Translations under genes and position numbers: made by a program
Origin: Anaeromusa acidaminophila DSM 3853
GTDB taxonomy: Bacteria; Bacillota; Negativicutes; Anaeromusales; Anaeromusaceae
Length of the DNA: 64,000 bases
Assembly: GCF_000374545.1 (NCBI RefSeq)
Contig: NZ_KB894584.1
Location: 1 to 64,000 of the forward strand
Direction: 5' to 3'
The notes under the pieces: model-generated
The model's database searches: none
What the model was told of the DNA's origin: nothing
Seen by the model: the letters and a program-made list of their open reading frames with translations, nothing else
In this document: positions 22,722 to 37,190 of the stretch, piece by piece
Layout: each line of letters starts with the position of its first letter
Numbering within the stretch: the stretch's first letter is position 1

Positions 22722-23318
22722 TTACGATTTTGCCGCTTGTTCTTCCTGCGGCGTCGCCTCCACTAGGCGAATCACATCCAAAAATAATTCTCTCCGCTCC
22801 ACGACCCGCCAACCAGCCTCTTCTAAAAGAGGCTCGATACGCTGGTTAAAGCGATCTGCAAACAGGCGGCTGGTAAGCACATTCACCGCGTCCAGTAGCG
22901 GACCTAATAACCAATTGTCGCTGCGCACATGCTCCAGCAAAAACAGTCTACCCTCCGGCGCTAAAACACGCCGACACTCACGCAGCCCCTGTACAGGATT
23001 TCCTACGCCGCAAAAGAGAAACTGCGCCACGATCGTATCAAATGCGCCATCTTCGAAAGGCAAGGCTTCCACGTTCCCTTGGCAAACGGTTATCGGCTGA
23101 CCGCCAGGCAGCTTACGCTGCGCGGCAAGAGCCAACATTTCTTGGTCCAAATCCAGCAAGACCAGCCCGTTCCAACCGGTGTGAGGATAGCAGGACAAAG
23201 ATAAACCGCTGCCGCCGCCAACTTCAAGCACCCGCCCTTGCACGCGCTCCAGATGGCTTCGTCGCCAAGAGCGCGAAATGACTAACGATAAAAAGAGATC
23301 AAACGCCTTGGCCATCAT
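22722..23318 (-). CDS. Class I SAM-dependent methyltransferase
   Basis: 198 residues. SAM-binding motif I VLEVGGGSGLSLSCYP, the acidic LDLDQEML, the GNVEALPFEDGAFD motif and the post-motif EHVRSDN are those of the UbiE/PmtA-like group. Substrate unknown; similar proteins modify lipids, quinones or metalloids. It begins 7 nt after the CDF exporter, so it shares the metal-responsive leader upstream, which may hint at a role under metal stress. Confidence 0.8.
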   Translation of the reverse strand: MMAKAFDLFLSLVISRSWRRSHLERVQGRVLEVGGGSGLSLSCYPHTGWNGLVLLDLDQEMLALAAQRKLPGGQPITVCQGNVEALPFEDGAFDTIVAQFLFCGVGNPVQGLRECRRVLAPEGRLFLLEHVRSDNWLLGPLLDAVNVLTSRLFADRFNQRIEPLLEEAGWRVVERRELFLDVIRLVEATPQEEQAAKS

Positions 23319-23324
23319 GAAAGC

Positions 23325-24245
23325 TTACCGCCTTTCACACTGCGTACAGCCTGCGCAAGCAAACTCTTCAGTCGCCACCGTGCAGGGTTCCATGTGAATA
23401 ATGACGTCGCACGGAGCAAATACATCCTTAAGCTCAGCTTCCAACTGGTCGCAAATTGCATGAGCATTCTCCAGCGGCAAGTCCTTGCCAAGAACTACAT
23501 GCATGTCCAGTAGACGATAGCTTCCTGACCGGCGCGTCCGCAAACGATGCAAAGAGAGCACTTCCGGATGCGTCTGCACCAAGGCCGCAATTCGCGTTTC
23601 TTCCTCTGCCGGCAAGCTAATATCCGTCAACTCGGCGAAACTATTTTTGGTTAATTTCCACCCTGCACGGAAAACAATCACCGCTACAACCAAGGCAATC
23701 GCCGGATCCAGCCAAGGAAGACCGGTCCAATAAATCAAGCCCAAGCCAATCAAAACGCCTACAGACGTCCAAATATCGGCTCTCAAGTGCATAGCATCCG
23801 CTTCCAAGGCCTGCGATCCCGTAGTCTTAGCTACGGCCATCAGTTTTCCGGATACCAGCCAATTAACGACAATAGAAAGAGCCATTACCGCCAGACCCAG
23901 TTCCAAATCCTCGGGCATATGCTGCTGATTAAGCTTTTGTACCGCTTCCCAGACAATGCCCACGGCAGCGACAACAATGAGCACCGCCTCAATCGCGCCA
24001 GAGAGATTTTCGATCTTCCCGTGCCCATAAGCATGCCTTTCATCAGGCGGCAAGTCCGACTTGCGTACCGCGGCCCAGGCAATTAAAGCCGCCAGCAAAT
24101 CCACCGCTGAATGAGCGGCCTCGGATAAAATACTCACAGCCCCGGTTTGCCAGCTTACCAGCAGCTTAAAAACAACCAATGACGTATTAGACACAACCGA
24201 TAGGCGTGCTGTACGACGCTTTAACAATACCAATTCTTCATTCAT
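23325..24245 (-). CDS. Cation diffusion facilitator (CDF) metal exporter
   Basis: 306 residues. Six membrane segments with metal-site motifs ILSEAAHSAVDLLAA (segment 2) and HAYGHGKIENLSG between segments 2 and 3, then a cytoplasmic domain of the ZT_dimer type (about 205-290). The C-terminus CAGCTQCERR adds a Cys cluster not usual in CDF proteins and a possible metal-sensing tail. CDF proteins export Zn, Co, Ni, Fe or Mn in exchange for protons. A structured leader with promoter and terminator precedes it. Confidence 0.9.
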   Translation of the reverse strand: MNEELVLLKRRTARLSVVSNTSLVVFKLLVSWQTGAVSILSEAAHSAVDLLAALIAWAAVRKSDLPPDERHAYGHGKIENLSGAIEAVLIVVAAVGIVWEAVQKLNQQHMPEDLELGLAVMALSIVVNWLVSGKLMAVAKTTGSQALEADAMHLRADIWTSVGVLIGLGLIYWTGLPWLDPAIALVVAVIVFRAGWKLTKNSFAELTDISLPAEEETRIAALVQTHPEVLSLHRLRTRRSGSYRLLDMHVVLGKDLPLENAHAICDQLEAELKDVFAPCDVIIHMEPCTVATEEFACAGCTQCERR

Positions 24246-24281
24246 GTTTACTAGCTCCTCTCAAAAAAAGGGGCGACATAT

Positions 24282-24380
24282 AAAAAACCTACGGAGCCCC
24301 CTAGAGGGTCCCGTAGGCTGACTACTGCTGCTAAAGAGCAGCCCGGCCGCACCGTTACAACACGGCCGCCTGATCCTTAT
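24282..24380 (-). ncRNA. Structured metal-responsive leader (NiCo-type riboswitch candidate) with terminator
   Basis: The transcript should start near 24378. It first forms a compact domain: GGCCG...CGGCC enclosing CCGT/ACGG, then the perfect hairpin GCTGCT-CTTT-AGCAGC. Directly after comes a strong terminator (24288-24317, CCTACGG...CCGTAGG, six T). Domain, terminator and gene lie in the order of a transcription-terminating riboswitch. The gene is a CDF exporter, the classic target of NiCo (czcD) riboswitches. Assignment to that class rests on context and partial resemblance, not on a covariance search. Confidence 0.6.
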
Positions 24381-24384
24381 TGGT

Positions 24385-24413
24385 ATTGTATCACAAGTCC
24401 ATTTCGGTGTAAA
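24385..24413 (-). promoter_or_regulatory. Promoter of the CDF exporter leader
   Basis: On the minus strand, TTTACA (24413-24408) and TACAAT (24390-24385) with a 17 bp spacer, placed just before the structured leader. Confidence 0.75.
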
Positions 24414-24437: not shown

Positions 24438-25082
24438 TTAGCCAATCTGAGCGACGTGAACTACTTTATAGCCTTTGGCCTCAATGCGTTTCTTGAGTTC
24501 TTCCAGATCTTTCACATCGCCGCGAATGACTTCTTCACCGCTGCCATCGGGCAAGGTGTAGCTAGCCATAGAAGTAATATTGATGCCCAAATCTGCATAA
24601 ATACCGGTAATTTCAGTAATAACGCCTGTCTTATCGGGTACGCGAATCGTAACGCGCGTAGTCCCAGAAGGCAAGCCCATAATGTCTACCAGGCATTTAA
24701 AGATATCGGTCTCCGTAATAATGCCGACTACATCTTGATTCTTATCCACTACCGGCACGCCGCCAATGCGGTTATTGTACATCAATAGCGCCGCCTCTTC
24801 GATGGTAGCTTCCGAGTCAATGCTAAGAACTTTTTTCGTCATGATATCCTTAATCGAGGCTTTGGACAACAAATAATCCGCTTCATGCACGGAAAGGGTT
24901 GTCGCCGAAGACGGGGACGCCTTGCGCAAATCCCGGTCGGTTACAATGCCCACCAGTTTGCCGATATCAACCACTGGCAAACGGCGAAAGCGATGTTTCT
25001 TCATGAGCTCCGCAGCATCCGCAATGGTAGTCGCTGACGTAACAGTCACCGGATTGACGGTCATCTGATCTTTCACAAACAT
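24438..25082 (-). CDS. CBS-pair and ACT domain protein (AcuB-like)
   Basis: 214 residues: two CBS domains (about 1-60 with VTSATTIADAAELM, about 72-130 with DSEATIEEAALLMYNNRIGGVPVVD) and a C-terminal ACT domain (about 138-210; TRVTIRVPDKTGVITEITGIYADLGINI). CBS pairs bind adenine nucleotides and ACT domains bind amino acids, so this looks like a dual sensor. It lies 61 nt after livF on the same strand with AAAGGAGAG before its ATG, which suggests it is the last gene of the branched-chain amino-acid operon and may report on those ligands; that is inference. Confidence 0.85.
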   Translation of the reverse strand: MFVKDQMTVNPVTVTSATTIADAAELMKKHRFRRLPVVDIGKLVGIVTDRDLRKASPSSATTLSVHEADYLLSKASIKDIMTKKVLSIDSEATIEEAALLMYNNRIGGVPVVDKNQDVVGIITETDIFKCLVDIMGLPSGTTRVTIRVPDKTGVITEITGIYADLGINITSMASYTLPDGSGEEVIRGDVKDLEELKKRIEAKGYKVVHVAQIG

Positions 25083-34227: not shown

Positions 34228-35862
34228 TCAGCAGACGTATTGGATGGCTAATTTTTCCGCTATGGCGCGATCAGTCGTTACCAGCGCATCAGAACGGCCG
34301 ATAGGCAGCGAGCTGTTGCCTACAGGGGCCATCAGTTTCTTGAATTCGCTGTTTAGCGCCAGGGTATAATCGACAACCGCCTGAGCCGCTTTGTCGATGT
34401 CCAGACGCCCTACCAGCCGCGGGTCCTGCGTACAGATGCCTGTAGGACACTTGCCTGTGGAACAGGAGTTACAGCGCCCGTGTTCGTTGCCGACACAGCC
34501 CATCAACTGGATCAGGATCTTGCCGATAAAGACGCCGTTAGCGCCCAGGCAGATCAGTTTAAACGCATCCGCAGCCGCGTTGCCTGTAAGGCCCACGCCG
34601 CCGCCGGCGAAGATAGGAATCTGACCTTGACGGCCTTGCTTAACCGCCGCCAAGTAACACTCACGCAGCTTGGAAACCACCGGATGGCCCGTATGGTCCA
34701 GCGATACTTCATTGGCTGCGCCGGTGCCGCCCTGAATGCCGTCGATGAAAAAGCCGCCGCAAATGCGGTACGGGTCGCGAAGCAAGTTGTTGTATACGGA
34801 GACCGAAGTAGCCGAGGCGGCGCATTTGATCGCTACCGGCACCCGGAAGCCAAAAGCGGCGTTCATGGAAAGGAACATTTTCTGTACCGACTCCTCAATG
34901 GAGTACAGGCCCTGATGGTTAGGGGGAGACATAAGGTCCGCCTTGGGTACGCCACGGATGGCCTGAATATGAGAAGCCACCTTAGCCGCCGGTAAAAGAC
35001 CGCCATCGCCAGGCTTAGCGCCCTGACCGATTTTGATCATCACCGCCGCCGGATCGACTTTCATTTTCGGCATAGCCTGAATGATACGATTCCAGCCGAA
35101 ATGGCCGGAAGCAATCTGCAGAATCACGTACTTAAGCTGCTCGGATTCCATCAGCTTCACCGGCATGCCGCCTTCGCCGGAGCACATGCGTACTGGCAAG
35201 CCATGCTTTTCATTGAGATAGGCCGTAGCCAGCGCCAACGCTTCCCAGGCGCGAGTCGACAGCGCCCCAATGGACATGTCGCTGAAAATAATCGGATAAA
35301 TCCAGCTGACTGGCGGCGTATGACCGTTTAACTGCAACGAACCGTTGGCCGAAGCCAGCGGCAGCTGCGACGGCGGAAGCACGCGCCCCAAAGGAGTGCG
35401 CATATCAAAGGTATGACGCTCCGAATCCAGCGAAGGGTCAGTCATCTGCGAAATGCGACCAACCACAATACGATCCAGCGTACGGTCAGCGTTCAGATTG
35501 GTCCGTCCTCCTCGCTTAATCGTAGCGCCGCCAGCCCGGGCCAGCAGATTCTGACGCGTATCTTCATTGCGCACTGGCCGGATGGCCTGATTAGGACAAA
35601 CCTTCTCGCACATGGCGCAGCCTACACAGGCATTCGCTACAGAACGCTTCTGACGAATCACAGGCATAGCCGCATGCTCTTTTACCGGGTTGGGTACAGG
35701 GCCGCGGGATACGACGCTGCTGCGCCGTTCTACGGCCGCTTCAATAGCTCCGAAAGTACAGGCGGCTACACAGCTGCCGCAAAGAGTACACCGCTCTGGG
35801 TTATACTGTATTTTCCAGTTGAGGTCGTTGACGCCTACATCCTGGGTTCTTACTGTTTCCAT
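34228..35862 (-). CDS. Glutamate synthase, FMN-binding catalytic subunit with N-terminal ferredoxin domain
   Basis: 544 residues. Two 4Fe-4S clusters at the N-terminus (CTLCGSCVAACTFGA, CVGCAMCEKVCPNQA) precede the GltB synthase barrel, with SDMSIGALSTRAWEALA, GEGGMP, KIGQGAKPGDGGLLPAAKV, PPNHQGLYSIEE and the FIDGIQGGTGAANEV loop. A CNSCSTGKCPTGICTQDP Cys motif binds the 3Fe-4S cluster. It makes glutamate from 2-oxoglutarate and ammonia delivered by the glutaminase subunit. GGAGG precedes the ATG, and it overlaps the glutaminase gene by 13 bp. Confidence 0.92.
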   Translation of the reverse strand: METVRTQDVGVNDLNWKIQYNPERCTLCGSCVAACTFGAIEAAVERRSSVVSRGPVPNPVKEHAAMPVIRQKRSVANACVGCAMCEKVCPNQAIRPVRNEDTRQNLLARAGGATIKRGGRTNLNADRTLDRIVVGRISQMTDPSLDSERHTFDMRTPLGRVLPPSQLPLASANGSLQLNGHTPPVSWIYPIIFSDMSIGALSTRAWEALALATAYLNEKHGLPVRMCSGEGGMPVKLMESEQLKYVILQIASGHFGWNRIIQAMPKMKVDPAAVMIKIGQGAKPGDGGLLPAAKVASHIQAIRGVPKADLMSPPNHQGLYSIEESVQKMFLSMNAAFGFRVPVAIKCAASATSVSVYNNLLRDPYRICGGFFIDGIQGGTGAANEVSLDHTGHPVVSKLRECYLAAVKQGRQGQIPIFAGGGVGLTGNAAADAFKLICLGANGVFIGKILIQLMGCVGNEHGRCNSCSTGKCPTGICTQDPRLVGRLDIDKAAQAVVDYTLALNSEFKKLMAPVGNSSLPIGRSDALVTTDRAIAEKLAIQYVC

Positions 35863-36956
35863 CGCTCTACCTCCAACTGGTTGTTAATCAGCACGATTTC
35901 GCGCTCGTTGGGATAAATATCGCTGGCAATATCACGATCCGGCAAAATAGCGTTCAAGCCGCACACTTCCGAAGAAATAGCTTTCGTCACTGCGTCGCCG
36001 CCAATAACAACAGGCCGCAGCTTTTTGGAATCGCAGCATGTCATCATGCGTCCATCCGGCAAAAGCCCGATAACCGTGTTCGGTCCGTTGATTTCCAAAT
36101 GCCCCATAGACTGACGAATGGTGGTCAGCACATCCTTGTCGGGGCGCTCTTCCATTTCACTAAACGGCAATGGCGTAATTACATGTTTATAGTACTGCAA
36201 TGGCCACTTAAGTTCATGCAGCACATAATGCAAGGTATAAAGGAAATTTTGCGAATCCGACTCAAAACCGATATAGCCGCGATGCAACGATTTCTGATAC
36301 TCCTTGTTTTTGGTATAGAAAGTGTTTTCCCCATTAGCGCAAAGGGTATAGCCCTGCAAGAAGAAGGGATGCGCCGCATAGCGAACAATATCGTAGTTGG
36401 TATTTTGACGGCACTGCACCACCAGGTTGCGCGCTAAAAGATCGCCTGTATCGTCCCAAAGACGGAAATAGGTGGCGATATCTCGGGGATCGCCGATTTC
36501 TTTTAGGGTCAGTACATCCGGCCAGAAAGAATACACATAGCCTTCATCTTCCGGCTCCAAAAGCGCCCGTAAAGCCAGACGGGTATCCATAAGCAGATCT
36601 TCTTTTTCTTCTGCTGGAGCGGTCGCCAAATAATCCGGATAGTCATATTGGCGGAAAATGTAGTACGGCATGGCTTGGATATCTAGGCCCGCTTTGCGGC
36701 TGCCCCGAGGAATCCATTCCTGCAGAGGAGTAAAGCCGGCAGAGTCCATATAATCCTCTACCAGTTTGGCCCCTCGCTGAGTACAAGCCAACGACAAGAG
36801 AGGCTTGTCCTTATGCTCAGCGAAACGCCCCTCCAAATCCTGCAAGGTCATAGCAAAACCGGAATTATCATGCCCTTTTTGTTGGGGCAGCATGAGCCGC
36901 AATGCGGCAGACGGGTGGAATACTTGACTGCTCTTAATGGCGCCAATTCTACACAT
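35850..36956 (-). CDS. Glutamate synthase, glutaminase (class II amidotransferase) subunit
   Basis: 368 residues of the N-terminal-nucleophile amidotransferase fold. The start at 36956 gives MCRIGAIK, placing the catalytic Cys directly after Met, as this family needs; GGGAG is 8 nt before. The longer frame from 37001 would bury the Cys and is rejected. It frees ammonia from glutamine for the FMN subunit. This separate glutaminase protein is the archaeal-type, three-gene form of GOGAT rather than the one-piece bacterial GltB. First gene of the operon. Confidence 0.9.
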   Translation of the reverse strand: MCRIGAIKSSQVFHPSAALRLMLPQQKGHDNSGFAMTLQDLEGRFAEHKDKPLLSLACTQRGAKLVEDYMDSAGFTPLQEWIPRGSRKAGLDIQAMPYYIFRQYDYPDYLATAPAEEKEDLLMDTRLALRALLEPEDEGYVYSFWPDVLTLKEIGDPRDIATYFRLWDDTGDLLARNLVVQCRQNTNYDIVRYAAHPFFLQGYTLCANGENTFYTKNKEYQKSLHRGYIGFESDSQNFLYTLHYVLHELKWPLQYYKHVITPLPFSEMEERPDKDVLTTIRQSMGHLEINGPNTVIGLLPDGRMMTCCDSKKLRPVVIGGDAVTKAISSEVCGLNAILPDRDIASDIYPNEREIVLINNQLEVERWKQ

Positions 36957-37033
36957 ATGACTGTCTCCCTTCCTTCTCTCTCTGCAAAACCAATCAAGCA
37001 CATCGCAGCTTCAGCACAACTTTCTCCGCTGAA

Positions 37034-37190
37034 CAAAAAAGGAAAAGACCCTGCGCAAAGTGCCGACATCCGCCGGGACCTTCCGCAGGGTCTTTTCTAC
37101 CCACGGTGTAAAGAGGCGGCTTCGCCTCTCCTGTGCCGCTTGGACCAGCCGCTAAATAGCGCGGAACCCTAGGCACACTCCCTGAAAACA
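37034..37190 (-). ncRNA. ykkC-family riboswitch (probable ppGpp subtype) with terminator, upstream of glutamate synthase
   Basis: On the minus strand the leader reads GTGTGCCTAGGGTTCCGCGC, a small hairpin, then GGCTGGTCCAAGCGG and CACAGG. These are the hallmark ykkC aptamer blocks (CUAGGGUUCCG and CUGGUCC). The aptamer runs into a strong terminator, AAAAGACCCTGCG pairing with CGCAGGGTCTTTT (37043-37096) followed by T-rich sequence. ykkC subtype 2a binds ppGpp and is known before amino-acid synthesis and glutamate synthase genes, which fits here. Guanidine (subtype 1) or PRPP (2b) sensing is less likely by context. Confidence 0.8.

Follow-up and report, generated by a model that had tools for sequence, protein, structure and literature searches.

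A NiCo-class riboswitch with an overlapping terminator ahead of the only CDF exporter gene of its genome

A riboswitch of the NiCo (czcD) class lies on the minus strand of the window, the whole 64-kb stretch of DNA that was analysed, and almost certainly controls the only CDF cation exporter of the genome by transcription attenuation, with the adjoining methyltransferase gene probably under the same control. An excess of a metal ion, for example iron(II), cobalt or nickel, very probably switches the exporter on. The locus is a real yet ordinary addition to a known class (Furukawa et al. 2015; Xu and Cotruvo 2020, both as cited in PMC7689651), and taken by itself it holds no surprise for a specialist. 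What the window adds is a clean case of simple layout, with a predicted transcript start at P1, one exporter and one CDF gene in the genome. The elements are collected in Table 1, the coordinates of all of them having been re-read from the window by script.

Table 1. Elements of the riboswitch locus, with the related loci that carry the additional hairpin P0
Feature	Position	Strand	Basis or remark
Promoter: TTTACA (24413-24408), 17-nt spacer, extended -10 TGA-TACAAT (24393-24385; TACAAT 24390-24385)	24385-24413	-	sequence and class-wide geometry
NiCo riboswitch aptamer, Rfam extent	24304-24389	-	RF02683, 44.5 bits
P1 5' strand TAAGG, pairing with CCCTC (24308-24304)	24375-24379	-	weak: mismatch or bulged C
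CAGGC	24372-24368	-	
P2: GGC/GCC and GCCGT/ACGGT	24345-24370	-	internal loop G / GCG as in relatives
GGG of junction J2/3	24342-24344	-	invariant in alignment; probable metal-ligand guanines, by inference from the part of PMC7689651 on this class
P3: GCTGCT/AGCAGC, 6 bp	24327-24342	-	longer than in most class relatives
P4: GTAG/CTAC (24325-24322/24316-24313)	24313-24325	-	second pair U-A, compensatory (relatives C-G)
GGGA of junction J4/1	24309-24312	-	invariant; probable metal-ligand guanines; also within terminator 5' arm
Intrinsic terminator CCUACGGGACCCUCUAGGGGGCUCCGUAGG-UUUUUU: hairpin 24317-24288, then TTTTTT 24287-24282	24282-24317	-	shares 24317-24304 with aptamer; -18.8 kcal/mol for 36 nt
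Shine-Dalgarno-like GAGGAG	24255-24260	-	
CDF cation exporter, 306 aa, site A HSAVD / HLRAD, Cys-rich tail	23325-24245	-	profile searches
Class I SAM-dependent methyltransferase	22722-23318	-	start 7 nt past CDF stop
Probable P0 hairpin at related loci L002-L025, L032, L081-L096 and L102	about 20-70 nt upstream of NiCo aptamer		

Class assignment

When the whole window was compared with Rfam 15 by cmscan, the NiCo family RF02683 gave the sole match above a gathering threshold, at 44.5 bits against a curated cut-off of 37 (E 8e-07 for the 64-kb window). No second NiCo copy was found in the 3.48-Mb genome, and at the site no other Rfam family was reported at E values up to 1, apart from an overlapping, lower-scoring match of the same clan that was set aside. 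The score is modest for the class, the best being 74.5 bits in the taxonomic class and 85.4 bits in the phylum. At its 5' end the match takes in the -10 box and the bases that follow; these first ~11 nt (24389-24379) are probably untranscribed. The folded domain, 75 nt long, extends to 24304 from a predicted transcript start near 24378. An earlier note, made from the letters of the DNA, had proposed a NiCo-type riboswitch, to be checked by a covariance search, and had allowed for a different metal-sensing RNA. The search was positive, and further support for the NiCo assignment comes from the gene context, the overlap with the terminator and the conservation among relatives; the other RNA is unneeded as a class. 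The nested helices that the same note had described, in a domain of some 65 nt, are present as four helices, and its length estimate gives way to the 75 nt above.

Aptamer structure

The window holds the four-way junction of helices P1 to P4 with its conserved CAGGC, GGG(C) and GGGAC segments; among relatives CAGGC, GGGC and GGGAC show little or no variation. The window has both of the invariant GGG runs, which are candidate counterparts of the metal-coordinating G46, G47, G87 and G88 of the Eba structure. It shares with the RF02683 class the junction letters, as it does a CDF exporter downstream and a terminator that competes with the aptamer. It differs from the class in several respects: P3 and P4 are re-registered by three bases, a shift found in this genus relative to its relatives; a U-A pair stands in P4 where nearly all others have C-G; and P1 is weak, its 3' strand reading CCCTC as against CCCTT in congeners, which restores one pair. 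It is because of the re-registration, with its compensated pair, and the weak P1 that the fit to the class had looked partial. Unconstrained folding favours a shifted, 11-bp register of P2 (-27.3 kcal/mol, versus -17.9 for the canonical pairs alone).

Covariation was assessed for 17 pairs in 47 distinct relatives of the A type (those in which, as in the window, the transcript is taken to begin at P1; see below) against 500 shuffles. The strands were aligned in different ways: P1 at a fixed distance, the P2 3' strand from the GGGC directly after it, and the P4 5' strand by complementarity, which biases helix 4 towards structure. Paired cells amounted to 84.7%, 12 of the 17 pairs had changes on both sides, and the covariation score was 0.302 versus 0.185 in shuffled alignments, none of the 500 reaching any of the five measures; when the partner strand was slid by 1-3 columns, pairing was at most 43.5%. 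From the predicted start, the stability of the minus strand relative to shuffles has a z of -1.9, with 9 of 200 shuffles as good. The observation is confirmed by the covariance match and the comparison with relatives, folding energy alone being too weak and not used as proof.

Promoter, terminator and switch mechanism

Promoter, folded RNA and terminator all lie on the minus strand within 24413-24282. The 17-bp spacing of the promoter noted earlier was borne out, with an extended -10 in addition, and a separate promoter scan recovered the same promoter (10 of 12 matches plus TG). Transcription is predicted to start near 24378, leaving a leader of ~133 nt before the CDF start codon at 24245. 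The geometry recurs among A-type loci of the taxonomic class: TTTACA-N16-18-TANNNT is found at 36 of 55 (mean 0.12 and maximum 1 in shuffles), and at 31 of 55 the -10 ends 12-15 nt 5' of the aptamer's CAGGC. An operator reading of the half-repeats at the -35 and -10 (TTTACAC...GTGnTAA) was rejected, the conserved extended -10 (TRTG) accounting for them. Also rejected was a plus-strand reading of the interval, which folds as well, since hairpins are self-complementary, yet it is the minus strand that carries promoter, Rfam match and gene. Directly 5' of the promoter lies a gene for a CBS-CBS-ACT protein (24438-25082, minus strand), which in turn follows genes of a branched-chain amino acid ABC transporter.

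The immediate terminator of the earlier note was borne out too, except that it is not simply placed after the folded domain: the terminator overlaps the domain by ~14 nt. Its 5' arm, CCUACGGGACCCU, consists of the P4 3' strand, the GGGA junction and the P1 3' strand, and because this strand (24317-24304) is shared, aptamer and terminator are, by sequence and fold prediction, mutually exclusive. Folding of successive prefixes forms P2, P3 and P4 first, the terminator displacing P4 and P1 only from about 85-95 nt. A mechanical terminator scan omitted the hairpin, which contains internal mismatches. Among relatives, a terminator built in part from the P4 3' strand and GGG was present at 134 of 147 loci versus 44 of 146 with shuffled downstream sequence, a criterion judged loose because of the number of controls that pass.

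In the published NiCo mechanism the terminator forms without metal and Co or Ni binding leads to read-through (PMC7689651, section 5.3.2). Cooperative binding of Co(II)/Ni(II) is a further trait expected of members of the class. From class membership we infer that the window RNA binds metal and would likewise act as a metal-ON transcription switch. RNA polymerase would start just at P1; in the absence of metal the nascent GCCUACGGGACCCUC would pair with GGGGCUCCGUAGG downstream, forming the terminator and stopping transcription at the U-run. Given enough of a divalent transition metal, the two invariant GGG runs would hold metal ions around which the four-way junction closes, and P4, J4/1 and P1 would then retain the strand needed by the terminator, allowing read-through and synthesis of the exporter.

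Exporter and downstream gene

The gene behind the leader is the single CDF gene of the genome and stands directly behind the genome's single NiCo match. The protein matches the CDF superfamily model TIGR01297 at 250.9 bits against a cut-off of 82, carries both the membrane and the ZT_dimer domain (PF01545/PF16916) and ends in CAGCTQCERR, in agreement with the Cys-rich exporter described in the earlier note. It does not reach the equivalog cut-off of either FieF (NF050169, 206.7 versus 420 bits) or MntE (NF052621, 204.3 versus 500 bits) and is therefore filed as neither. The best-matching solved structures are those of FieF/YiiP (2qfi, E 3.6e-42; 3h90 and 3j1z), with homology over the full length; the window protein differs from them in its HxxxD in TM2 and its Cys-rich C-terminal tail as well as in its score under the FieF equivalog cut-off. 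Site A of E. coli FieF reads DxxxD/HxxxD, and the HxxxD/HxxxD of the window protein is found more typically in Zn/Co CDFs.

The methyltransferase gene that follows is probably co-transcribed with the exporter gene, as their spacing suggests, and is possibly a second target of the riboswitch. It occupies this place in all three congeners and in none of the other NiCo loci.

Alternative readings and the metal sensed

It is extremely improbable that the RNA belongs to a different metal-sensing class, such as the Mn(II) yybP-ykoY class, or to a new one: the partial fit by eye and the modest score would suit this reading, but NiCo alone is reported for the stretch under the permissive E value given above, and the junction letters in the window are NiCo's own. 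Very improbable, too, is a reading at odds with metal-dependent read-through of the window sequence. P1 of the window strain is one pair short of that in the three congeners and the shifted P2 register is favoured without metal, both of which speak for such a reading; against it, the metal-junction letters, the compensated P4 pair, the promoter and the terminator are all intact, and none of the four genomes of the genus has lost the RNA.

The NiCo switch remains the preferred reading, and Fe(II), Co(II) and Ni(II) are all possible as its physiological metal. That the RNA is NiCo-class by descent with Fe(II) as its working ligand here, and so would control a FieF-like exporter in response to iron overload and not to cobalt or nickel, is a serious possibility, though short of a probable one. 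The exporter itself points both ways, FieF/YiiP being its closest solved structures while its Zn/Co-like site A and its score under the FieF cut-off argue against iron. The natural metal of the class is itself disputed, and the part of PMC7689651 concerned with it compiles the conflicting data. There, a Clostridium czcD RNA is described as Ni/Co-selective in aerobic in-line probing, which weighs against Fe(II), whereas under anaerobic conditions the Eba RNA (Eba-czcD) binds Ni at 61 nM, Zn at 93 nM, Co at 120 nM, Fe at 400 nM and Mn at 11 uM (Xu and Cotruvo 2020, via PMC7689651). In favour of Fe(II) are the response of this RNA to it at 400 nM, the expectation that in the cell only Fe(II) and Mn(II) are sufficiently available (Xu and Cotruvo 2020, via PMC7689651) and a Listeria NiCo riboswitch that precedes an iron exporter (PMC7689651).

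Relatives and two 5' forms of the leader

The three congeners found in the search of the taxonomic class all have a NiCo match (44.3-45.3 bits) ahead of the same CDF gene. NiCo matches occur in 74 of 381 sampled genomes of the class and in 99 of 399 genomes of a phylum-wide sample. Where a downstream frame was readable at class loci, it was CDF-like at 71 of 79 (phmmer, with the window protein as query), and several of the remaining eight frames begin like P-type ATPases. One relative, L076 (aptamer near 2000), has a large extra stem-loop inserted in P4 and a NiCo match of 128 nt.

The leaders compared fall into two 5' forms. In the A type, which includes the window, the -10 ends 12-15 nt before CAGGC at the 31 of 55 loci given above, so that the transcript would begin at P1. 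Leaders of this form from the same taxonomic class (for example L034, L065 and L062) have, as the window does, a promoter TTTACA-17-TRTGnTANNAT at this distance; A-type loci precede the same kind of CDF gene, and a Cys-rich tail is shared in kind by many of them. Unlike the window, most A-type leaders have a perfect P1 of 4-5 bp and a P3 of 2 bp only. The window transcript, predicted to start at P1, lacks a 5' hairpin that is conserved in many other NiCo members, which belong to the B type (39 loci in the set). There the -10 is mostly found 41-52 nt upstream, and the 5' end of the transcript consists of AUCUCUUUGCACUGC, a variable spacer that sometimes contains a hairpin of varying sequence, and ACAGUACAA directly before P1.

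In the 39 B-type loci AUCUCUUUGCACUGC...ACAGUACAA probably forms an extra hairpin, here called P0, just before P1, as judged from complementarity: in 38-39 of the 39, seven of the eight positions of UUGCACUG and CAGUACAA are paired, the exception being a C.A mismatch that hardly varies. The arms are nearly invariant and so offer little covariation, with a single G-C to A-U change in L102. A search for the two-armed pattern in 398 phylum genomes gave 15 matches, 13 of them at NiCo loci; of the other two, one lies directly ahead of what begins as an aptamer and continues into masked bases, and one is a chance match in a GC-rich stretch. The pattern thus accompanies NiCo aptamers in 14 of the 15 cases and is nearly confined to them. 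The Rfam model of the class begins inside the P0 3' arm and draws it unpaired. No description of P0 was found in titles and passages of open papers, a set that lacks the original 2015 and 2020 articles, and for that reason novelty is not claimed. Since P0 is missing from any construct that starts at P1, it might affect measured metal affinities. It is doubtful that in this lineage the NiCo riboswitch switches the sole CDF exporter in response to iron(II) overload and that, in addition, the form with the promoter fused to P1, lacking the hairpin, is a functional subtype apart from the P0 form.

By eye, GCAAAGA stands just 5' of the Shine-Dalgarno sequence at several class loci (among them L003, L008, L011, L012 and L023) and is complementary to the UCUUUGC in the 5' extension of B-type leaders; a long-range pairing of the two in read-through transcripts is possible.

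Elsewhere in the window, the Guanidine-I family (ykkC, RF00442) matches the minus strand at 37081-37183 with 59.1 bits against a gathering cut-off of 63 (E 5.9e-08), before two glutamate-synthase-like genes (35850-37001 and 34228-35862). Genes of this kind also follow ykkC riboswitches of subtype 2a (ppGpp).
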